Assembly (NCBI GenBank): GCA_035541755.1
Contig: DATKMQ010000069.1
Span: 1 to 42,684, forward strand
From: Syntrophorhabdaceae bacterium
GTDB lineage: Bacteria; Desulfobacterota; Syntrophorhabdia; Syntrophorhabdales; Syntrophorhabdaceae
Reading direction: 5' to 3'
Length of the DNA stretch: 42,684 nt
Shown here: piece after piece, positions 8,636 to 41,939 of the stretch
Layout: each line of letters opens with the position of its first letter
How positions within the stretch are numbered: position 1 is the first letter of the stretch
Position numbers and translations under genes: made by a program
The notes under the pieces: generated by a model
Told to the model about the DNA's origin: nothing
Seen by the model: only the letters and a program-made list of their open reading frames with translations
Database searches by the model: none

Positions 8636-8977
8636 TCAGATCACTATGTCGAGGATAGACTTCAACACCTCGTTCTGCGTCTTCAAGGCCTGAATGTTGG
8701 CCTCGTACCCACGTTGCGCGATCATCATCTGAGGGAACTCCACTGCAAGATCCACATTGGAAGTCTCCCGGGTAACACCGTACTGCTCAATCAAGGCCCC
8801 GGACGTATTTGACGTCATGAGGTTCACCTTGGGCAGCTCCTTCTCATCATCCGTGATGGTTGCGATTTTGGCTTTGTAGCCGTCGGTGTTACTGTTCGCG
8901 ATGTTGTGGGCGGCGTTGGAAAGCGTGTCCCCGAATGCAGTAAGACCTGAAATCGATGCACTGATTCCGGATATCAT
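8636..8977 (-). CDS. Orphan flagellar rod/hook-type protein (FlgC-like)
   Basis: About 113 residues. The N-terminus (SGISASISGLTAF followed by LSNAAHNIANSNTDGYK) is the flagellar rod N-terminal motif, and the end (SNVDLAVEFPQMMIAQRGYEAN) is the rod/hook C-terminal domain. The length is near that of FlgC (about 135) but short. No other flagellar structural gene is in the window, so this is an isolated copy; such orphans can be secreted rod-like proteins of other use. I place the start at the ATG at 8977: a TTG at 8995 would add six residues, but a sigma-28-like promoter overlaps that region and would start transcription around 8978. Confidence 0.75.
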   Translation of the reverse strand: MISGISASISGLTAFGDTLSNAAHNIANSNTDGYKAKIATITDDEKELPKVNLMTSNTSGALIEQYGVTRETSNVDLAVEFPQMMIAQRGYEANIQALKTQNEVLKSILDIVI

Positions 8978-8984
8978 GAATACA

Positions 8985-9011
8985 TTGTCGGACAAAATAG
9001 AGATAACTTAA
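8985..9011 (-). promoter_or_regulatory. Sigma-28-like promoter for the flagellar rod-like gene
   Basis: Leftward TTAAGTTA (9011-9004), 11 bases, TCCGACAA (8992-8985). This matches the FliA consensus TAAAGTTT-N11-GCCGATAA at 6/8 and 6/8 with exact spacing. The predicted start of transcription (about 8978) is at the ATG at 8977, so the message may be leaderless. Confidence 0.5.
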
Positions 9012-9063: not shown

Positions 9064-9528
9064 ATGGTCAATAGCATCGACACGGGTGCAAGGGTCTTCT
9101 ACGCCCCGTCTCAAAGCCCCGGGACCGCGGGTGCAGTCACGGGTCCCGATGGCGCACCGGCAAACGGGGATGTAAATAACAAGGACTTTACGCCTCACGA
9201 GTGCAAGACCTGAAAGAGCCGCAAATATCAGGATCGGTCCGATGATCCTTCCGTCTCGTTTCAAACTGCCATGCACATCTCGCCGGATATGGCGGCCGCT
9301 GCCGTCGCAGGTCATGAAGCGGAGCATGTGGCGCACAACGCGGAACGGGCCGCCAGGAAAGGCATGGTTGCCCACTCCACGGTCTCAATCAACATGGCCC
9401 CATGCCCTGAATGAGGGCGCCTCTACGTGTCGGGCGGCACGACAACCACCACATACTCACCCAAAGAAACTACCAAGGGCACGGGCGCAGAGACAAACAA
9501 AGGAAATTATATCAATACGACTGTGTAG
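9064..9528 (+). CDS. Candidate two-selenocysteine HExxH protein (UGA at codons 50 and 117)
   Basis: A single frame from ATG 9064 to TAG 9526-9528 gives 154 residues if two UGA codons (9211-9213, 9412-9414) are read as Sec. Both sit in the same context: C47-x-x-U50 followed by KSRKYQD, and C114-x-x-U117 followed by GRLYVSGG. In the family I recognise from Firmicutes (unnamed; ECQTCKxRKYQDGSD, HExEHV, CPECGRxYVSGG) these positions are cysteines. A zinc-protease-like HEAEH lies at 84-88. The frame has no other stop or shift. Each UGA is followed by a hairpin matching bacterial SECIS rules. Function is unknown; CxxU pairs suggest redox or metal binding. The N-terminus is uncertain: ATG 9048 in another frame encodes MPINGYG, resembling the family start, then stops at 9072, so a one-base shift there is possible. 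The alternative is a pseudogene with two nonsense mutations. Confidence 0.7.
9230..9249 (+). promoter_or_regulatory. SECIS-like hairpin after the first UGA
   Basis: AGGATC (9230-9235) pairs perfectly with GATCCT (9244-9249) around the 8-base loop GGTCCGAT. The loop begins 22 bases after the UGA and has G at its first two positions, within the published bacterial SECIS limits (G in the first two loop positions, 16-37 bases from UGA). The loop GGUC recalls that of the E. coli fdhF SECIS. Confidence 0.6.
9426..9441 (+). promoter_or_regulatory. SECIS-like hairpin after the second UGA
   Basis: CGTGTC (9426-9431) pairs with GGCACG (9436-9441), including one U-G pair, closing a GGGC tetraloop at 9432-9435. 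The loop starts 17 bases after UGA 9412-9414 and has G first, within the bacterial SECIS limits. Confidence 0.5.
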
Positions 9529-24946: not shown

Positions 24947-27349
24947 CTATGCGGACTGCTGATGTTCGGTCCGAGCAATGATTTCGTCCTGCACCGGTTT
25001 GCCGAGGGCCACAAAGTAAGCACTGTAGCCTGCGACCCTCACGATGAGATCGCGGTGTTTTTCCGGCTCTTTCTGGCTTTCCAGTAGTACAATCTTGTTG
25101 ACGACGTTGAACTGTACGTGCTTTCCGCCGGCCATGAAATATGTCTTAATGAGGGACGCCAGTTTCTTCATATCCTCTTCTGACGTAAGCGCCGAAGGAT
25201 GAAATTTCATATTGAGCAGAGTCGCCTGGAACGGAGTCTGGTCTACTGCCATCGCGCTTCGCATAACCGCGGTAGGTCCGTTTATGTCCTTACCCTGTGC
25301 CGGTGACAGTGTGCCGTCAGCCAGTGTTTCACCGGCAAGCCTTCCGTCAGGCGTAGCCCCGGTGAGCGCCCCGCCGGGTGCATGTGCCGTAATCGAAATT
25401 CCGGTCGGTTTTGTGGTTCCGCCCCATGGGGTCTCAAATGTCTTAGTTGTTGCTGCCCAGAATTTATACAGGTCTTTAGCGATCGAATCCACATACGGAT
25501 CACCATTGCCAAACTTTGGTGCCGCGAGGCACATCTTCCTGATCTCCGGATAACCGTTGCCTTCCCAGTTTGCGTCCAGAGCGTCCTTTAATTCCTTCAT
25601 CGTTACTTTCTTTTCATCGAAAACGAGCTTCTTGACTGCGGCGATTGAGTCGGCAACATTGACCATACCCACGAGGTTGAGTACCGAGCCATTTTCAAAA
25701 GGCATGACACGGTCAAGCACGTCTTTACCGACCTTTATGGCGTCATACATGAGGGCTGAGTGAACCACGTCAGGAAACAGATCGGTGTGAGCCCTGAGGA
25801 GAATATTATGTTCCTCAGCAGCAAGCCCCATAAAATACTTGAGCTGTGTTTTAAAAGCATCCAGGAACTCATCGAACGTCTTGAAGCTCTCGAATTCGCC
25901 GGTTTTGGGTCCGATCTGTATGCCGAGTCTCGGGTCGAACCCATTGTGGATCGCTATCTCAAGGACCTTGGGTACGATGAACATGCCGATGGCTGAGGTC
26001 CTCGACTTGCCGGGAAGGTTCACGTCAAGGCAGCCCGAGAGGGTGTAATTTCTCGCGTCCTTAAGTGGCACACCCTCGCCGGTCAGGTAACCGATATATG
26101 ACGGATCGCCGATAAAGGCGGGCATGCCCATACCCGTCTTCACCACTTCAAGGGCCTTGAGCATAAGCTTTTCAGGTGTGCCCTCATGGACCCTGACCGT
26201 TATGGTATAATGCGGGGTCTGGCAGTCTTTCGCCGCCTCCAGGATGAGATAGCTCAACTCGTTTGTCGCGTCGTTTCCGTTTTCGTCCACACCGCCAATG
26301 ACCAGGTTGTTCCATCTGGCCATACCTGACCATTTGGCGCGCTGCATCTTTCCGCCACCGACAAAGTTGTATTGCATGACCTTGATGCGGAGGCACTCGA
26401 GCAGTTCCAGGACATCCTCATCACTCAGGATGCCCGCCTCTTTGTCCTTTTTGTAGAACGGATACATGAACTGGTCAAGCCGGCCAAGCGGCGACGCCCC
26501 GCCGAGAATCATGAGGTTTATAAACCAGAAGGACTGCATCGCCTCACGGAATGTGCGCGCCGGCTCGCCGGGCACGCGGTAGCAGGATTCCGCAATGGCC
26601 TCCAGCTCTTTTTTTCGTTTCGGATCTTTTTCTTTCTTCGCAAGTTCTGTTGCAAGATCGCCGTAACGTTTTGCGATACGGACTATAGCGGGCAGAGCAA
26701 TGATTACCGAGTGGAGAAAATGACCCTTCTTTATGTCATCTGCGCTGAAAAATCTCAGATTTCTCAACTCCTCCTCGGCATCCTTCACGATCTTGTTGAG
26801 CCCTTCATTGAGCACCTTCTCAAATTCGATCACGATGAGCGTGTACTGGAGGCCCAGACCCCAGCCGAAACCGGCGCCTCCCTGTCCGCGCCCCTCGTTC
26901 TTCTTCATCCAGGGGGGGCAGAGTATTCCCGACTTGATGAAGGGCCACATCCTCTCGTCATCGTAGAACATACCCTGTCGCTCGTCGAGGGTCCTTCCCT
27001 TATTCATGAAAAAGTCATCAAAAGATCTGAGCAATTTCTCATCTTCCGCGGAAATGGCAAGACCCGCTTTTCTCAACTCTTCCATATCTTCAGACGGCCA
27101 GGCGGGTCCTGTGGTGCCTGCCTCCATACCCATCGGTTTCTGCGCGATATTCCCCACAATCAGCTCATCGTCTTCGATAAAAATCGTTCTATTATCGAGG
27201 AAATGGGCCGTTGCCTTTGCCCTTCGCAAGATCATGGGTTCGCCTTCCGTCTGTCGCATTGACTCGGTAACAAGACGGACTTTTTCCGTGCAAATGGGAA
27301 ATTCCTTGACTTTCAATCGCTCTTTTAATTTCTGTACCCTTTGGTTCAT
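24947..27349 (-). CDS. Glycyl radical enzyme of unassigned substrate
   Basis: 800-residue PFL/GRE family protein. Gly774 in RVAGYSAYF is the radical glycine near the C-terminus. Cys440 in TLSGCLDVN is the thiyl cysteine in the active-site loop. Residue +2 is Asp442 where dehydratase and decarboxylase-type enzymes (glycerol dehydratase, choline lyase, hydroxyphenylacetate decarboxylase) have Glu, so the chemistry may differ. The length fits eliminase-type enzymes; benzylsuccinate synthase alpha is longer and needs small BssB/BssC subunits, which are absent here. GGGAGG lies six bases before the ATG. It is last in the leftward locus whose first gene is the activase. The enzyme is oxygen sensitive and cytoplasmic. 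Substrate unknown. Confidence 0.95.
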   Translation of the reverse strand: MNQRVQKLKERLKVKEFPICTEKVRLVTESMRQTEGEPMILRRAKATAHFLDNRTIFIEDDELIVGNIAQKPMGMEAGTTGPAWPSEDMEELRKAGLAISAEDEKLLRSFDDFFMNKGRTLDERQGMFYDDERMWPFIKSGILCPPWMKKNEGRGQGGAGFGWGLGLQYTLIVIEFEKVLNEGLNKIVKDAEEELRNLRFFSADDIKKGHFLHSVIIALPAIVRIAKRYGDLATELAKKEKDPKRKKELEAIAESCYRVPGEPARTFREAMQSFWFINLMILGGASPLGRLDQFMYPFYKKDKEAGILSDEDVLELLECLRIKVMQYNFVGGGKMQRAKWSGMARWNNLVIGGVDENGNDATNELSYLILEAAKDCQTPHYTITVRVHEGTPEKLMLKALEVVKTGMGMPAFIGDPSYIGYLTGEGVPLKDARNYTLSGCLDVNLPGKSRTSAIGMFIVPKVLEIAIHNGFDPRLGIQIGPKTGEFESFKTFDEFLDAFKTQLKYFMGLAAEEHNILLRAHTDLFPDVVHSALMYDAIKVGKDVLDRVMPFENGSVLNLVGMVNVADSIAAVKKLVFDEKKVTMKELKDALDANWEGNGYPEIRKMCLAAPKFGNGDPYVDSIAKDLYKFWAATTKTFETPWGGTTKPTGISITAHAPGGALTGATPDGRLAGETLADGTLSPAQGKDINGPTAVMRSAMAVDQTPFQATLLNMKFHPSALTSEEDMKKLASLIKTYFMAGGKHVQFNVVNKIVLLESQKEPEKHRDLIVRVAGYSAYFVALGKPVQDEIIARTEHQQSA

Positions 27350-33131: not shown

Positions 33132-34094
33132 TTAGCCGCCGATAATTACTTTCTTGAGACCCCGCTCCTCCATAATCTGCTTCAGGGAAAGCATGCGCTC
33201 TTCGTCGGGAGGCGCGGAATTAAGCGGAGATTGATCTCTTTCCAATTGTTCGATCTTGGATTCCCCGAGCCGGTGATACGGGAGCAGATGAATCTGAAGA
33301 AAAGGACTCAGTTCATGGACCACGAAGGTGGCTAGTGTATCCATATTGTCTGCCGAGTCATTATAGCCGGGTACCACAGGGACTCTAATGACGAGCGGAA
33401 TATGCTTTTCGTGGAATATTCTTTTCGCATTCTCGAGGATAAGCTCATTGGAAACACCCGTCAGCCTTTTGTGTTCGGCTGTGTTCATATGTTTCATATC
33501 GTAGAGCACGAGATCCACATAGGGGAGTATCTTTTCGATCGTTATCCAGGGGGCAAGGCCGCATGTCTCAATGGCCGTATGAATGCCCTCTTCCCTTGAG
33601 AACTTAAGAATGGCAGCTGAAAATGCCGGTTGAGCGAACGGGTCACCACCCGAGATGGTCACGCCGCCCCCGGAGTTTTTATAAAAGATGGCGTCCTTCA
33701 TGACCTCGCCCACCACCTCTTTGGCCGTCATGACTTTTCCCATGACCTCTCGCGCCTCCTCGGGACATACATCCACACAGTGGCCGCAAGCCGTACAGAG
33801 GTTCCGGTCCGTGTGCACCTTGCCTTCACCCATCTCAATCGCGTTGACAGGACATACAGCGATGCATCTGCCGCAGCCCACACAGCGCTCACGGTTGTAG
33901 AAAAGCTCGGGTTTTAACGCTTGAGATTCGGGATTCTGACACCACACACAGGATAAAGGACACCCTTTGAGAAAAACGGTCGTACGAATGCCCGGGCCAT
34001 CATGGATTGAGTAGCGCTGTATGTTGAAGACCACACCCTTGATATCGCCATCTTCGCTTGCCACCGACTTTATTTCCTTTTCTTTGTTATCCAT
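33132..34094 (-). CDS. Glycyl-radical enzyme activating enzyme
   Basis: 320-residue radical SAM protein that makes the radical on Gly774 of the GRE. Cys45-x3-Cys49-x2-Cys52 (CPLSCVWC) binds the SAM cluster; YSIHDGPGIRT precedes it, as in activases. Two ferredoxin-like 4Fe-4S sets follow: CVGCGRCIAVC (71-81) and CTACGHCVDVC (100-110), which mark the non-PFL activases (benzylsuccinate synthase, glycerol dehydratase, hydroxyphenylacetate decarboxylase types). GGGVTISGGDP is the SAM-binding GGE-like strand. It is the first gene of the leftward run and stands divergent to the CoA-transferase genes. Confidence 0.95.
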   Translation of the reverse strand: MDNKEKEIKSVASEDGDIKGVVFNIQRYSIHDGPGIRTTVFLKGCPLSCVWCQNPESQALKPELFYNRERCVGCGRCIAVCPVNAIEMGEGKVHTDRNLCTACGHCVDVCPEEAREVMGKVMTAKEVVGEVMKDAIFYKNSGGGVTISGGDPFAQPAFSAAILKFSREEGIHTAIETCGLAPWITIEKILPYVDLVLYDMKHMNTAEHKRLTGVSNELILENAKRIFHEKHIPLVIRVPVVPGYNDSADNMDTLATFVVHELSPFLQIHLLPYHRLGESKIEQLERDQSPLNSAPPDEERMLSLKQIMEERGLKKVIIGG

Positions 34095-34368: not shown

Positions 34369-35595
34369 ATGTTAAACGGATATCGTGTGTTAGATCTTAC
34401 AGACGAAAAAGGTTCTGTCTGCGGTAAAATCCTGGGCGATCTTGGCGCCGATGTGATCAAGATAGAAAGACCCGGAGGCGATCTCTCGCGGCGGATCGGT
34501 CCGTTTTTGCAGAATACGCCCGATCCGGAGAAGAGCCTCCACTGGTCTAGCTATAACAGTAGCAAGAGGGGCATCACGCTCAACCTCGATAACCCCGAGG
34601 GACAGGAAATATTCAAGAAGCTCGCAGACAAGGTAGACGTGATCATCGAATCGTTTGCCCCGGGCCACCTGCAGTCCCTCGGTCTCGGCTATGTTGAGCT
34701 CAGTGCCTCTAATCCGAAACTGATCATGACATCCATAACCCCCTTCGGGCAGACAGGCCCCTACAAGGACCGTAAGGCCTCGGACCTCGCCATTCTCGCC
34801 ATGAGCGGGCTTATGAGCATTACCGGAGACCCTGATCGTGCCCCCGTTCGGATGTGCCTTGACCAGACTTACAGCTTAGGGGGCATACATGCAGTGGTAG
34901 GGATTCTGCTCGCCATTAACTACAGGAGGGTCTCAGGAGAGGGACAATATGTGGACGTCTCCATGTATGAGGCTGCGGTTCGCGGCAATTACTGGGAACC
35001 GGCACGATGGGAATTCCTGAAAGTCCTGGTTAAGAGGGCTGGTAACCGGTTTCCCCGGGCTGCAGCAAAAGGTCTTCAACTGTGGCGCTGCAAGGACGGG
35101 TACGTCACATGGTTATTGACGGGCGGTGTCACGGGCGCGAAGCAGATGAAAGCGCTCATCACATGGATGTCCGAACTCAACCGGGCCGATATACTGAAAG
35201 ATGTTGACTGGGCCACGCTGCATCTTTCCGAGGTGTCGCAGGAGCAACTCTCCGCGTGGGAAGCGGTCATTGAAAAATTCTTCACGGGCTTCACCATGGA
35301 CGAGCTTGAGGTGGAGTCCATCAAAAGGGGCATCCCTATGGCCCGCGTAAATAGGATTGATAATGTGACCAAAGATACGCAGCCTATTGCCCGCGGCTTC
35401 TGGAAAGAGCTCCCTGTTGCGGGAACAACTCAAACCATCGGGTATCCCGCATTCCCTTTTCTCGCCAGCGAAACCGATACTCATGTTAAGATGCGGGCAC
35501 CAAAGATCGGCGAGCATAATGAGGAGATATACGAAAAGGAGTTGGGTCTATCCAAACAATCCATATCATCCCTCAAAGAACGCGGCGTTCTTTGA
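34369..35595 (+). CDS. Family III CoA-transferase, BbsE-like non-catalytic partner (pair 1)
   Basis: 408-residue CaiB/BaiF-fold protein. The N-terminal VLDLTDEKGSVCGKI and GDLGADVIKIE blocks are typical. The residue aligned with the catalytic Asp169 of formyl-CoA transferase is Tyr168 (in RMCLDQTYSLGG), so this chain probably cannot form the acyl-aspartyl intermediate. It is followed 22 bases later by a homologue that keeps the Asp, which suggests a BbsEF-like heteromer moving CoA between succinate and a larger acid. GGGAGA lies before the ATG. Divergent from the activase gene. It is clearly paralogous to the gene at 39480-40703. Confidence 0.9.
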   Translation: MLNGYRVLDLTDEKGSVCGKILGDLGADVIKIERPGGDLSRRIGPFLQNTPDPEKSLHWSSYNSSKRGITLNLDNPEGQEIFKKLADKVDVIIESFAPGHLQSLGLGYVELSASNPKLIMTSITPFGQTGPYKDRKASDLAILAMSGLMSITGDPDRAPVRMCLDQTYSLGGIHAVVGILLAINYRRVSGEGQYVDVSMYEAAVRGNYWEPARWEFLKVLVKRAGNRFPRAAAKGLQLWRCKDGYVTWLLTGGVTGAKQMKALITWMSELNRADILKDVDWATLHLSEVSQEQLSAWEAVIEKFFTGFTMDELEVESIKRGIPMARVNRIDNVTKDTQPIARGFWKELPVAGTTQTIGYPAFPFLASETDTHVKMRAPKIGEHNEEIYEKELGLSKQSISSLKERGVL

Positions 35596-35617
35596 GTAAC
35601 ACACAAGAGGTATTCGC

Positions 35618-36838
35618 ATGACGGCACAAAAAGGCGCTTTAGAAGGCATAAGGGTATGTGATTTCAGCTGGGTGGGCGCAGGCCCGCTCGCCACCAAGTA
35701 TCTTGCGGATTTCGGTGCACAGGTCATCAAAATAGAGTCTACAAAGCACCCCGACATAGGACGCTTGAGCGCGCCCTTCAAGGACAATATCATCCACCCG
35801 GACCGGAGTGCTTTCTTCCTTCATTCAAATACAAGTAAGATGAGCATCACCCTGAATATCAGACATCCGAAAGGCGTAGAGATTGCAAAGAAGATCGTGA
35901 AGATCTCCGACATCGTTATGGAGAACTTTACCCCGGGCGTTATAGAGAAGCTGGGGCTCGGTTACGAGGAATTGAAAAAGATAAAACCCGATATTATCAT
36001 GGCGAGCTCAAGTATCTACGGGCAGACAGGCCCTAAGAACCGTTTCAGCGGCTTCGGAAACTCGGGCGCTTCCATCTCCGGCCACTACATGCTTACGGGT
36101 TGGCCTGACAGGGACCCCGTGACCCCGGGCATAGCATACGCCGACGTGGTCCAGCCCCTTTTCACCGCCGCCGCGCTGATGGCCGCCATCGATTTCAGGG
36201 AGAGGACCGGAAAAGGACAGTACATCGATACGACCCAGGTTGAAACCATGGTCCAGTTCATATCGCCCGCCATACTCGACTACTTCGCCAACGGCACCAT
36301 TGAAACGCGACAGGGCAACCGTTCGAGCTACGCGTCCCCCCACGCTGTTTTTCCCTGCAAGGGCGATGACCGGTGGTGCGCCCTCGCTGTTTTTAACGAA
36401 ACAGAGTGGATGGGACTTGTGAGGCTCATGGGCAATCCATCATGGACAAAGGATGCAAAGTTCTCCACGTTTACCTCGAGAAAACAAAACGAAGATGCGC
36501 TTGAAACGCTCATCGGCCAATGGACCATACAGTATGACCGCGAGGAACTGGTAGACATGCTGCAAAAGGTTGGTGTGCCCTCGGGGCCCGTACAGGATGC
36601 GTCTGACCTCGTGGACCGAGATCCTCAACTCCGCGCGAGAGAGAGTTTCGTAAAACTCACGCATCCGGTCATCGGGGAGTGTAACCACCCGGTCCCACCG
36701 GTCAAGCTATCGAAAAGCCCTGCCCAGGTCAAAACATCACCCTGTCTGGGTCAGCACAACGAATACGTGTATCTCGACCTCCTCGGCATACCCGATGAGG
36801 AATTTGTGGAACTGCTCAATGACGGAGTTCTGGAGTAG
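35618..36838 (+). CDS. Family III CoA-transferase, BbsF-like catalytic partner (pair 1)
   Basis: 406-residue CaiB/BaiF-fold protein. Asp176 in GIAYADVVQP aligns with the catalytic Asp of formyl-CoA transferase. GQTGPK and the glycine-rich FSGFGNSGASISGHY loop (about 143-157), then RTGKGQYIDTTQVE, complete the active-site pattern. With the gene before it (22 bases) it likely forms a two-chain CoA-transferase like benzylsuccinate CoA-transferase BbsEF. It is closely paralogous to the protein of 40722-41939. Substrate not evident. Confidence 0.92.
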   Translation: MTAQKGALEGIRVCDFSWVGAGPLATKYLADFGAQVIKIESTKHPDIGRLSAPFKDNIIHPDRSAFFLHSNTSKMSITLNIRHPKGVEIAKKIVKISDIVMENFTPGVIEKLGLGYEELKKIKPDIIMASSSIYGQTGPKNRFSGFGNSGASISGHYMLTGWPDRDPVTPGIAYADVVQPLFTAAALMAAIDFRERTGKGQYIDTTQVETMVQFISPAILDYFANGTIETRQGNRSSYASPHAVFPCKGDDRWCALAVFNETEWMGLVRLMGNPSWTKDAKFSTFTSRKQNEDALETLIGQWTIQYDREELVDMLQKVGVPSGPVQDASDLVDRDPQLRARESFVKLTHPVIGECNHPVPPVKLSKSPAQVKTSPCLGQHNEYVYLDLLGIPDEEFVELLNDGVLE

Positions 36839-36961
36839 ACCGAAGAAACAGGGCGGGCCGAACCGCGCACCACCGCTCAAACGAGGGTCTCTATCATACG
36901 GAAAGATACGTGGTTGAGAACATGTGTAAACGAGAGAGCGTCTTGAGCACGAGGAGGAAAC

Positions 36962-38119
36962 ATGGGTCCGCTTGAGAAGATGAAAGATCAGTACACACAA
37001 CGTGACAGCGCAGCAAGGGCATGGAAGAAACAAGGGGGCAAGGTAGTAGGCTACCTCTCCGATGATGCGCCTGATGAGATGATCCTCGCAGCGGGCCTCT
37101 TTCCCTTTCGCATGAGCGGAAATCCGGCCGAGGGCACCGAAGAAGTGGACAAATATTCGGAATCCTTTTATGATCCTTCGGTACGGTCCATTCTGAACAT
37201 GCTGCTCACGGGCAAATATGACTTTCTCGATTTTATCATCATCCCCCATCACAGCGATGCGGTCCTTAAGCTGTACCATCAGCTGTGGTGGATACATCAA
37301 GTGAATCCCGCAGTGAACTTTCCTCCTGTTCATGTATTTGACATACTCCACACGCCGTTTCTCACAACGGCCCTCTATGTACGGGAGAGCCTGCTCAATC
37401 TTAAGAGTAAGCTTCAGGAATGGTCAGGCAGAAAGATCGACATTAAGGCACTGTCGCGGGCGATAGCAGTGGGAAATGAAAATAAGGCCCTTCTCAAAAA
37501 GGTGGCTGAGTTGCGTGTCGCCGAACAACCACGCGTATCAGGGGTCGAAGCCCTCCAGATGATCGGATCTGCGGGCTTCATGCTCAAAGAAGAGCACAAC
37601 AAACTTCTCAAAGAGTTCCTCGATGGCGCCTCCACACTCCCTGAAAAGGATGGCGTAAGAATATTCATGGAAGGCAGCGATCTCGATAATCCCGAGATCT
37701 ATAAGCTTGTCGAGTCCTCAGGGGCAGTGATCGTTGCTGAAGACAGCAACTGGGGGAACAGGTATTTCGAGGACCCGGTGGACGAAACGGCTGACCCTAT
37801 GGAGGCGCTCGCCGACAGATACCATGCACGATCGTCCCGACCGAGAACCCAATCGTCGGCGCAAAAGGTCGCCTACACAGTGCGAAGGGCGCTTGAAGCA
37901 AAGGCGCAGGGGGCTATTTTCTATCTCCTGGAATGGGATCCCGCGCCCGCCTGGGATGAGCCCGATCAGATAAAGGCTTTGAAGGCAGAAGGCATTGCCT
38001 CGCTCTCATTCGGTCCGCAAAAATATCTGTTGTCCGACTCGGATCAAAAAAACATCAAGGCCGGCATACAAGGATTCATTGAGACGCTAAGAGAGGGACG
38101 CAAGGAGGGCCTGAAATGA
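36962..38119 (+). CDS. Cysteine-free BcrC/HgdB-like subunit
   Basis: 385-residue protein of the 2-hydroxyacyl-CoA dehydratase/benzoyl-CoA reductase family, of BcrC/HgdB size. Family motifs remain: DDAPDEMILAAGLFPFRM, DFIIIPHHSDAVLK, VAEDSNWGNRYFED. But it has no cysteine anywhere. The three positions where HgdB/BcrC carry Fe/S-ligating cysteines appear as Asp71 (YDPSVRS), Ser98 (HHSD) and Trp325 (LEWDP). It therefore cannot hold a cluster by cysteine, unlike characterised members. It overlaps the next gene by four bases (ATGA), so the two form a complex. GAGGAGG before the ATG. Confidence 0.85.
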   Translation: MGPLEKMKDQYTQRDSAARAWKKQGGKVVGYLSDDAPDEMILAAGLFPFRMSGNPAEGTEEVDKYSESFYDPSVRSILNMLLTGKYDFLDFIIIPHHSDAVLKLYHQLWWIHQVNPAVNFPPVHVFDILHTPFLTTALYVRESLLNLKSKLQEWSGRKIDIKALSRAIAVGNENKALLKKVAELRVAEQPRVSGVEALQMIGSAGFMLKEEHNKLLKEFLDGASTLPEKDGVRIFMEGSDLDNPEIYKLVESSGAVIVAEDSNWGNRYFEDPVDETADPMEALADRYHARSSRPRTQSSAQKVAYTVRRALEAKAQGAIFYLLEWDPAPAWDEPDQIKALKAEGIASLSFGPQKYLLSDSDQKNIKAGIQGFIETLREGRKEGLK

Positions 38120-39417
38120 GCGAACCGAAGAATATAAACGAAGGGCATAGAGCCGGGGCTTACGGAAGTGTAAAACAACTCAAGGTTGCCGCCATCTCTG
38201 CCAAATACCAGAAGGACTGGTTCAAATCCATCCAGGAGAGACTGGCTAAAGGAGAGCCTTTCTGTCTCGCCAACGCCGATGCACCCCATGAGATATTCCT
38301 GGCCATGGACGACATACCCGTGGTCATGACCCAGTGGTGGTCCGCGATTATCGCCGCCAAGCAGATGGCGGGCTACTATTTCGACGAAATGAATGCCAAG
38401 GGATATCCTCGGAACCTCTGTCGCTACTGTGCATTACCCCTTGCCTGCGCCATGGACCACAATCCGGAGCGCGCACCTTGGGGAGGTCTCCCTAACCCCA
38501 GCATACTACTGGCCCAGCTATCCTGTGACATACAAACAAAGATTTTTGAGCGGCTGGCCGGCGAGTATAATTGCAAATTCTTCCCCATGGAGTATCCGGC
38601 GCCTGCCCCGTCGTATCCCCGCTGGTGGGAAACACTGGAAACGAGATGGGAAGAAATAGTCGGCACCCGGGCGCTCGATCTTCGCGTGGAAGAGTTAAAG
38701 GCCCTCATACGGTATCTGGAGGTCACAACAGGCAGGGTATTCAACTACAAGAACTTCGTGGAAATCATGGAATTAGAGAACCAGCAGGAAGAATACTTTA
38801 AGAAAATCCGTAACCTCCTCTCCGTAACCCGCCCCTCCCCGGTGGGTTTGCCCGATCAGCTCGCTGCTACCATGAACCTTCAGTGGCACCGGGGCACGAA
38901 ATGGGGCGTAGAGCACGCAAAGCTCTTCTATGAAGAGGTGAAAGAAAAAGTTGACAAAGGTGAAGCGGTCTGCAAGGACGAGAAAGTCAGACTCATGTGG
39001 ATCGGGCGCGGGCTCTGGCATAATACGGCTTTCTACCGGTACTTTGAAGAAAAGTATGGCGCGGTCTTCACCAACTCCATGTATCTCTCCATCGCCGCTG
39101 ACGGCTACATACGTGACTACCGTACAGATCCGATGAGAGCCCTTGCAAGCCGCCATCTGTATATGGGATACTGGCTGCGCGATCCTCAGTGGCAATTAAA
39201 CGAGGCCAAACGATACGGGGTGAACGGCGCTGTAATGATCGTTGCCAGCAATTGCATCGATTCCGTGGGCAACATGTTTATCAAGATGGTCCTCGAACAG
39301 GGAGGCATTCCGGTGTTACCCATCTACGCCGACGTTGTCGATGCGAGAGAGTGGGATGACGAGGGTATCAAGGCTCAAGTCTCTCAGTTCATCGAGCAAA
39401 GATGCATGGCCAGATAG
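38116..39417 (+). CDS. BcrB/HgdA-like subunit with Fe/S cysteines
   Basis: 433 residues, the size of BcrB/HgdA. Candidate cluster ligands are Cys102/Cys105 (in LCRYCALPLAC), Cys137 (QLSCDIQ) and Cys380 (ASNCIDSV), spaced like those in the dehydratase family. It keeps DAPHEIFLAMDDIPV and the substrate-loop region GRGLWHNTAFYRYF. It pairs with the cysteine-free BcrC-like chain by overlapping frames. Characterised family members dehydrate 2-hydroxyacyl-CoA or reduce aromatic rings after ATP-driven electron transfer; the ASKHA activator is absent from the window. Reaction therefore unknown. Confidence 0.87.
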   Translation: MSEPKNINEGHRAGAYGSVKQLKVAAISAKYQKDWFKSIQERLAKGEPFCLANADAPHEIFLAMDDIPVVMTQWWSAIIAAKQMAGYYFDEMNAKGYPRNLCRYCALPLACAMDHNPERAPWGGLPNPSILLAQLSCDIQTKIFERLAGEYNCKFFPMEYPAPAPSYPRWWETLETRWEEIVGTRALDLRVEELKALIRYLEVTTGRVFNYKNFVEIMELENQQEEYFKKIRNLLSVTRPSPVGLPDQLAATMNLQWHRGTKWGVEHAKLFYEEVKEKVDKGEAVCKDEKVRLMWIGRGLWHNTAFYRYFEEKYGAVFTNSMYLSIAADGYIRDYRTDPMRALASRHLYMGYWLRDPQWQLNEAKRYGVNGAVMIVASNCIDSVGNMFIKMVLEQGGIPVLPIYADVVDAREWDDEGIKAQVSQFIEQRCMAR

Positions 39418-39479
39418 GACCGTGGGTTAAAAACATTGCGTCACGTGCCACATCAAATCAAGGAAAGTGAGGTAACAGT

Positions 39480-40703
39480 ATGCTCAGTAAGTACAGAGTA
39501 TTAGATCTCACCGATGAAAAAGGTTTCCTGTGCGGCAAGATAATGGGCGATCTGGGCGCTGATGTGATCAAGATCGAAAAACCCGGAGGGGACAATTCCC
39601 GGCGGATCGGCCCCTTTTTTCATAATACGGTTGATCCCGAGCGGGGCCTTAACTGGTTTGCCCTCAATGCGAGCAAGCGGGGCATCACGCTTAATCTTGA
39701 AGACGCCAGGGGGAAAGAGATATTCATGAAGCTTGCCGACACCGCGGATGTAGTCATCGAGTCCTTCAGTGCCGGCTATCTCGATGAACTGGGCGTAGGT
39801 TATGAAGCTCTGCACGCGCGTAATCCCAAAGTGATCATGACATCGATTACCCCCTTCGGACAATCAGGTCCCTACAAAAACCGCAAGGCCTCTGATATTA
39901 CCCTTCTCGCCATGAGCGGGTTCTTAAGCATCAACGGAGACAGCGACAGGCCACCGCTTCGGATGTGTCTTGATCAGTCCTATTATCTGGCAAGCGCACA
40001 CGCCGCGGCGGGCACGCTTCTCGCCATTCACTGCCGATATGCATCCGGCAAAGGACAGCACGTTGACGCCTCCATCTATGAAATAGCAGTACGCGCCAAC
40101 TACCGGGAGCCCTTCCGATGGGAGTGGGAAAAAGCAAAAACGCCTCGCATGGGTAACCGTTTCGCCAGAGGCGGAAAGGGCTTCAAACAGCTCTGGCCAT
40201 CCAAGGACGGCTACGTCACGTGGCTCATCATGATGGAGAACCCGAAGCCCGTCCGTGGCTGGGTGGAATGGATGAAGGAGGAGGGCACGGCGGGTAGGTG
40301 GGCCGATATAAACTGGGACGGACTCACCTCATTCGTTGGTTGGAGCGATGAGGACGTACAGGCGATCCAGGATTCCATAGCCGCGTTTATCGCGACTCAC
40401 ACGACGAGCGAGCTCGCAGCCGGCTCCATGAAGCGAGGCCTTTTGCTTTCACCGGTAAACTCCGTGGATCTGGTGGCACAGGACGAACAGCTCACTGCGC
40501 GAGGGTTCTGGAAACAAGTGGCCCATCCTGAGCTGAAGACTTCTTTCGCGTACCCGCGATTTACCTACCTCACGAGTGAAGATGCCAACGAGGTCCGTTT
40601 TCGGGCACCCCTGATCGGGGAACATAATGCCGAGATTTACGGTAAGGAACTGGGTCTTTCCGAACAAGACATGGCATCGCTCACGAAACAAGGGGTCCTT
40701 TAA
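39480..40703 (+). CDS. Family III CoA-transferase, BbsE-like non-catalytic partner (pair 2)
   Basis: 407-residue paralogue of the protein at 34369-35595, clearly similar throughout (VLDLTDEKG, CGKIMGDLGADVIKIEKPGGD, TSITPFGQSGPYKNRKASD). The catalytic position is again Tyr168 (RMCLDQSYYL). It is followed 18 bases later by its Asp-bearing partner, repeating the gene order of pair 1. GTGAGGTAAC lies before the ATG. The second pair may serve another acid or the reverse step of the same pathway. Confidence 0.9.
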   Translation: MLSKYRVLDLTDEKGFLCGKIMGDLGADVIKIEKPGGDNSRRIGPFFHNTVDPERGLNWFALNASKRGITLNLEDARGKEIFMKLADTADVVIESFSAGYLDELGVGYEALHARNPKVIMTSITPFGQSGPYKNRKASDITLLAMSGFLSINGDSDRPPLRMCLDQSYYLASAHAAAGTLLAIHCRYASGKGQHVDASIYEIAVRANYREPFRWEWEKAKTPRMGNRFARGGKGFKQLWPSKDGYVTWLIMMENPKPVRGWVEWMKEEGTAGRWADINWDGLTSFVGWSDEDVQAIQDSIAAFIATHTTSELAAGSMKRGLLLSPVNSVDLVAQDEQLTARGFWKQVAHPELKTSFAYPRFTYLTSEDANEVRFRAPLIGEHNAEIYGKELGLSEQDMASLTKQGVL

Positions 40704-40721
40704 TAACCAAGGAGGCGAAGA

Positions 40722-41939
40722 ATGATTAAAGAGGGCGCGCTCAAGGGAATCAATATACTCGACTTCAGCTGGGCAGGTGCGGGCCCCTTTGTGACCAAAT
40801 TTCTGGCCGATTTCGGCGCCCAGGTTTTCAAGGTCGAGTCGAAAAAACGTCCCGACGTAGGGCGTATGACGCCTCCTTTCAGAAATAACGTGCGCCACCC
40901 CGATGGGAGCGCCATATTCATCCACACCAACACGAGCAAGCTCAGCATCACGCTCAATATCCAGCACCCCAAGGGGATCGCTATCGCGAAGAAGCTCGTG
41001 GGCAAGGTCGATATCGTCATGGAAAATTTTACGCCAGGGGTCATGGCGAGGTTAGGGCTCACCTACGACGAACTCAAAAAAATCAAACCCGACATCATCA
41101 TGGCAAGCTCGAGTATCTATGGCCAGACCGGCCCCAAGACGAGTTTCAGCGGGTTCGGGAATTCAGGCAGCGCAATTTCCGGCCACTACATGCTCACGGG
41201 CTGGCCCGACAGAGAACCCGTGTCCCCCGGCATAGCCTATGCCGACGTGGTGCAGCCCCAGTTCACCATGGTTGCCTTACTAGCCGCCCTCGACTACCGA
41301 AGGAGGACCGGCAAGGGGCAATTGATCGACTGCACGCAAGTAGAGACTATGGTGCAGTTTATATCTCCTGCCATGCTCGACTATTTCGCCAACGGCGCCA
41401 TCGAAATGCGACAGGGCAACCGCTCGGCTTACGCATCTCCTCATGGAGTATTCCCTTGCAAGGGAGATGACCGATGGTGCGCCATCGCTGTCTTCGACGA
41501 ACCGGAGTGGCAGAGCTTATGCTCACTTATGGGTAACCCCGCCTGGTGCAGGGATGCCAAATTTGCAAACCTTGCCGCGCGCAAGGCGCACGAGGACGAG
41601 CTGGAATCGGCAATCGGCGCCTGGACCATCCAGTATGACCGGGACGAGCTCGCCCGCATGCTCGAGAAAGCGCGCGTCACCTCGGGGCCCGTGCAGGATG
41701 GGTCAGATCTTGTGGATAATGACCCCCATCTTAAGGCTCGCCAGAGTTTCGTTACGCTCACTCATCCGGTGGCAGGTGAATGCAACCATCCCACGCAACC
41801 GCTGAAACTCTCCGACTGTGCGCCTGACATGAGAACGTCCCCCTGCCTCGGCGAACACAATGAATACGTGTACAAAGAATTTCTGGGTCTCTCCGACGAG
41901 GATTACAATGCGGCCCTTGCCGAAGGGGTCTTTGAGTAA
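40722..41939 (+). CDS. Family III CoA-transferase, BbsF-like catalytic partner (pair 2)
   Basis: 405-residue paralogue of the protein at 35618-36838, very similar over its length. Asp175 in GIAYADVVQPQ is the predicted acyl-anhydride-forming aspartate. FSGFGNSGSAISGHY and RTGKGQLIDCTQVE follow. AAGGAGGCG precedes the ATG. With the chain before it, it should form the second heteromeric CoA-transferase of the locus. Presence of two near-identical pairs around the BcrCB-like genes points to duplication. Confidence 0.92.
   Translation: MIKEGALKGINILDFSWAGAGPFVTKFLADFGAQVFKVESKKRPDVGRMTPPFRNNVRHPDGSAIFIHTNTSKLSITLNIQHPKGIAIAKKLVGKVDIVMENFTPGVMARLGLTYDELKKIKPDIIMASSSIYGQTGPKTSFSGFGNSGSAISGHYMLTGWPDREPVSPGIAYADVVQPQFTMVALLAALDYRRRTGKGQLIDCTQVETMVQFISPAMLDYFANGAIEMRQGNRSAYASPHGVFPCKGDDRWCAIAVFDEPEWQSLCSLMGNPAWCRDAKFANLAARKAHEDELESAIGAWTIQYDRDELARMLEKARVTSGPVQDGSDLVDNDPHLKARQSFVTLTHPVAGECNHPTQPLKLSDCAPDMRTSPCLGEHNEYVYKEFLGLSDEDYNAALAEGVFE

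Follow-up and report, generated by a model that had tools for sequence, protein, structure and literature searches.

The window, the whole stretch of 42,684 nucleotides analysed here, contains a 154-codon reading frame on the forward strand that ends with a TAG stop and is interrupted only by TGA codons at 9211 and 9412 (Table 1). Translation of TGA as U gives U50 and U117, and the protein then shows the segments MVNSIDTG...HECKTUKSRKYQD...HEAEHV...CPEUGRLYVSGGTTTT...NTTV before the stop, so that the frame holds CKTU-KSRKYQD, HEAEHV and CPEU-GRLYVSGGTTTT. The original prediction had described one 154-codon frame whose sole interruptions are two in-frame UGA codons, 67 codons apart, and re-reading of the sequence confirmed this; its account of the gene was correct in each detail checked. 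The region upstream of the gene showed neither a clear ribosome-binding site nor a clear promoter. No other selenoprotein gene was found in the window, where TGA-interrupted coding-like frames lie only antisense to, or overlapping, ordinary genes.

Table 1. Position of the double-UGA gene, its motifs and its hairpins in the window.
Feature	Positions	Strand	Remarks
Predicted selenoprotein gene, 154 codons plus TAG	9064..9528	+	Homology to L003 spans both UGAs
CKTU motif (C47 to U50), UGA at 9211-9213	9202..9213	+	CxxC in all intact relatives
SECIS-like hairpin 1	9230..9249	+	Missing at the same place in 87/87 Cys relatives
HEAEH (residues 84-88), invariant HExxH of the family	9313..9327	+	Long helix in the predicted structure
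CPEU motif (C114 to U117), UGA at 9412-9414	9403..9414	+	CPEC invariant in relatives; predicted beta-hairpin turn
SECIS-like hairpin 2	9426..9441	+	Same place in 12/87 Cys relatives

Genomic context

A gene encoding a 119-residue flagellar rod/hook-like protein (Flg_bbr_C, E 5e-13) stands alone and divergent at 8636-8995 on the reverse strand and adjoins the double-UGA gene. Elsewhere in the window, the reverse strand encodes a PFL2/CutC-group glycyl radical enzyme together with its activase (24947-27349 and 33132-34094); the score of the enzyme falls far short of the cut-off for each named equivalog, those tried including choline lyase, sulfopropanediol dehydratase and indoleacetate decarboxylase. 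Translations inspected by eye show, at 34369-41939 on the forward strand, duplicated CoA-transferase-like gene pairs around two genes resembling 2-hydroxyacyl-CoA dehydratase subunits.

The relatives with cysteine described below have other neighbours. Genes encoding CheD (at L115) and PurC together with an aldolase-like protein (at L014 and L112) adjoin relatives of the same phylum, and proteins of 94-100 residues (MSIPL...DTVTIS.KA.QM) with no Pfam match adjoin them at L115 (1071-1373) and L114 (1890-2174). No constant neighbour was found for the relatives in Clostridia; because the neighbours vary and no constant partner is found there, no functional link is drawn. An origin from a phage or plasmid was rejected, as a Cys relative had no tblastn match in either collection. 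Furthermore, viral contigs showed no match to the family, and PHROG gave only two single-member weak matches.

Relatives and sequence conservation

Neither Pfam nor NCBIfam holds a match to the window protein or a model for its family, and no relative of solved structure was found by sequence. A search of 60 related genomes returned the window gene itself, with two TGA, and one uninterrupted relative, L003, which belongs to the same taxonomic family, has 209 amino acid residues with Cys at both sites and is 50% identical to the window protein (E 1.1e-28). Other relatives in the phylum are L014 and, after the profile was improved, L112-L116. A scan of 84,980 GTDB species genomes found 489 relatives; its query alignment included one artificial consensus sequence, used solely to make the search pattern broader, and each match was confirmed against a real sequence. 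The best 80 of the 489 were read, and belong mostly to Lachnospiraceae and Oscillospiraceae (Clostridia).

Every intact relative read (about 87) shows CxxC at both places, the second motif being CPEC in all of them, while the window protein shows CxxU at both; the claim that each UGA occupies the second cysteine of a CxxC motif is thus borne out. The family core, CxxC-x2-R-x-YQD-x-S-x-D...HExxH...CPECG-x2-Y-x2-GG, also includes the HExxH site that the original prediction had pointed out, present as HEAEH in the window protein. Relatives are 43-56% identical to the window protein, and differ from it in their longer, low-complexity N-terminal parts. With the UGAs counted as Cys, the window protein keeps 29 of the 31 core columns that are invariant in 35 Cys relatives, while it differs freely from them in less conserved columns. 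When the window gene is set against six relatives, third codon positions collect the most mismatches in all three stretches, ahead of the first UGA, between the two and past the second. The original prediction had named a frame broken elsewhere in close relatives as counter-evidence; apart from its two UGAs the window frame is intact, and intact relatives carry Cys at both of these places.

The window copy has a branch of 1.03 against a median of 0.18 and so evolves fast, its conserved sites being exempt; the long branch might point to relaxed constraint. About 780 genome searches within the phylum, some genomes being searched more than once, brought up no second relative with UGA, and no UGA stood at either site among the best 80 of the 489 relatives from the GTDB scan. 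One locus in the phylum, L117 (G555:C115), is a decayed remnant of the family of which only the C-terminal end, CPECG...SGG, is left.

Hairpins downstream of the UGA codons

Published limits for bacterial SECIS elements are a loop of 3-9 nt, a stem of 4-16 bp, a G in the first two loop bases, a spacing of 16-37 nt and a minimum free energy of at most -7.5 kcal/mol (PMC13188914). Hairpin 1 has a 7-bp stem (9230-9236/9243-9249), the loop GUCCGA (9237-9242), a spacing of 23 nt from the first UGA and an energy of -8.4 kcal/mol; hairpin 2 has a 6-bp stem (9426-9431/9436-9441), the loop GGGC (9432-9435), a spacing of 17 nt from the second UGA and -7.7 kcal/mol. Both satisfy the published limits, in agreement with the SECIS-type hairpin with a loop G that had been predicted after each UGA.

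SECIS-like hairpins are not rare, however: these limits are passed by 8.5% of coding positions in the window genes when imperfect stems are allowed, and by 1.1 and 2.5% when perfect stems and the observed energies are demanded. Among synonymous recodings of the window gene, both hairpins appear in 0.5%, or in 0.07% under the perfect-stem test; the former is the fairer figure, because the observed values had themselves served to set the perfect-stem thresholds. Folding energy by itself does not stand out from that of shuffled sequences (z about 0). In contrast to the window gene, the Cys relatives have no such pair of hairpins after their Cys codons (0 of 87).

Selenocysteine machinery and use of UGA

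The original prediction had named selA, selB, selC and selD as the genes to look for in the same genome, and all four are present. SelA was found with an E-value of 1.9e-148, selB as a full-length ORF of 644 amino acid residues with 377.6 bits against a cut-off of 242, tRNA-Sec with 76.3 bits, where the gathering score is 47, and selD with 373 bits. The selD gene (L119, G000:C90) has one in-frame TGA, in GGU-ASKIGPGDL, the known Sec site of SelD, and this codon is followed by a strong hairpin (spacing 16, loop CGGGU). Since selD carries UGA at this position, the genome decodes UGA as Sec elsewhere. A general reassignment of UGA was rejected, as UGA ends ordinary genes, including four of the ten well-supported genes in the window.

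A probable double selenoprotein and its alternatives

Taken together, the window gene is very likely a genuine double selenoprotein, and the explanation that survives best beside it is a recently inactivated pseudogene of the CxxC/HExxH family, with two chance mutations of TGC or TGT to TGA. The long branch of the window copy fits such decay, and so does the remnant L117, which shows that the gene is dispensable in places, this remnant lying in another genome of the phylum. However, with the Cys codons restored the gene offers 40 single-base nonsense opportunities, of which one falls at each of the two cysteines, and the probability that two random nonsense events strike exactly these two is P = 0.00125; the original argument that random decay would hardly hit just the two equivalent cysteines thus holds in numbers. 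Furthermore, the gene has neither a frameshift nor a further stop, each UGA is followed by a SECIS-like hairpin in a pair that the Cys relatives lack, and the genome has the Sec machinery. The retention of 29 of the 31 invariant columns also speaks against decay, although a recent inactivation would preserve these columns too and their retention alone is therefore not decisive. On this evidence we consider a pseudogene quite improbable.

Still less probable is that UGA acts as a real stop, yielding a 49-residue peptide, or is read through as Sec at a low, regulated level with the short product dominant. UGA is indeed an ordinary stop in this genome; however, the conserved domain lies almost wholly downstream of the first UGA, and the codon constraint at protein level extends past the second. 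An error of sequencing or assembly that turned two Cys codons into TGA is conceivable in a draft of 180 contigs, but it would need two independent errors, both on equivalent Cys codons and none elsewhere, and would leave the hairpins unexplained, so that its probability is close to negligible.

Against the double selenoprotein speak the lack of a second UGA-containing relative among those read, the long branch, the commonness of SECIS-like hairpins, the unremarkable folding energy, the want of a clear ribosome-binding site or promoter, and the draft state of the assembly. Sec insertion in this protein would follow the standard bacterial mechanism. SelB with Sec-tRNA(Sec), guided by the hairpin just 3' of each UGA, would insert Sec at positions 50 and 117 of the 154-residue product, as the evidence strongly implies. 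The two Sec residues would stand in for the second Cys of two invariant CxxC motifs, and the resulting CxxU motifs would flank a helix with the invariant HExxH. The Sec version probably arose from an ancestor with Cys, since Cys is present in all other members read.

Predicted structure and possible role

AlphaFold2 models of the family core reached pLDDT values of 76 and 74. In the core model the first CxxC falls in a short, low-confidence helix and HExxH in a long one, and CPECG sits at the turn of a beta hairpin whose strands are 65-77 and 84-97. Foldseek with the core model gave no match at E below 0.001. The best VIA-align match had a Z of 4.5 (a flagellar junction protein), with FlgG lower, all of them too weak to use. 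The family gave weak, sub-threshold profile matches, mostly to zinc-ribbon models. No similarity in sequence to a known peptidase family emerged, Peptidase_M48 being matched in only one of 15 members and below threshold (E 0.024), and SprA-related and HExxH zincin families were ruled out as candidates as they gave no match.

The second CxxC has the form CPECG and is modelled at the turn of a beta hairpin, an arrangement known from zinc ribbons; the four cysteines of the Cys relatives therefore probably make up a single metal or redox site. The corresponding four-chalcogen site of the window protein would be Cys2Sec2, and HExxH would possibly bind a second metal. As the same member of each Cys pair is replaced, the two Sec positions are suggested to work together, either as joint ligands in a single site or as partners in a redox pair, and this paired replacement of equivalent cysteines may be regarded as a natural experiment that suggests joint working of both positions.

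We infer that the most likely role is a redox- or metal-responsive version of the Cys2Sec2 site. Whether the window protein has a redox-active Cys/Sec site is evenly poised; a mainly metal-binding site is possible and clearly less probable, and some other role is unlikely. A more specific arrangement, in which a zinc-ribbon-like Cys2Sec2 centre with one Sec ligand per knuckle controls or stabilises the adjoining HExxH metal site, is put forward tentatively and is rather doubtful. If true, the Cys2Sec2 centre would belong to a selenium-tuned metalloprotein or metallopeptidase and not to a thioredoxin-like redox enzyme.

Comparison with known selenoproteins

A review of 2026 lists 119 families or subfamilies of prokaryotic selenoproteins, and none of them is described as the window family (PMC13188914). 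The open literature gave nothing relevant on an HExxH or zinc-ribbon selenoprotein. Most likely the window family is thus a selenoprotein family that was not previously listed as one; the original prediction, which knew of no such listing, agrees with its absence from this catalogue and with the lack of a Pfam or NCBIfam model. The family itself is widespread, and the present analysis brings to attention a group without such a model in about 490 genomes, mostly of gut Clostridia.

The putative regulatory protein FmdB (CxxC_CxxC zinc ribbon, TIGR02605) is listed as a selenoprotein with UxxU or CxxU motifs (PMC13188914 Table 1; PMC9312934). It is the closest precedent and resembles the window family in its pair of CxxC-type motifs that contain Sec, with at most two Sec residues, although the TIGR02605 model does not match the window family. 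To our knowledge, the FmdB family has no HExxH, unlike the window family. The dual CxxC small (seleno)protein NF041197 is likewise small, with two CxxC motifs of which one position is Sec in some members, but its model covers 53 positions and its Sec lies in an RxU/GxU motif, unlike that of the window protein. Identity with NF041197 was rejected, as the model misses the window gene and its best match elsewhere in the genome, at 16.6 bits, stays below the cut-off of 40. MduS and VhuD/MvhD share with the window protein a CxxU motif and two Sec residues (PMC13188914); however, they are methyltransferase or hydrogenase subunits, and their Pfam models do not match it. If true, the window family would add to the approximately 119 prokaryotic selenoprotein families and would stand among the few with two Sec residues, here joined with an HExxH helix.
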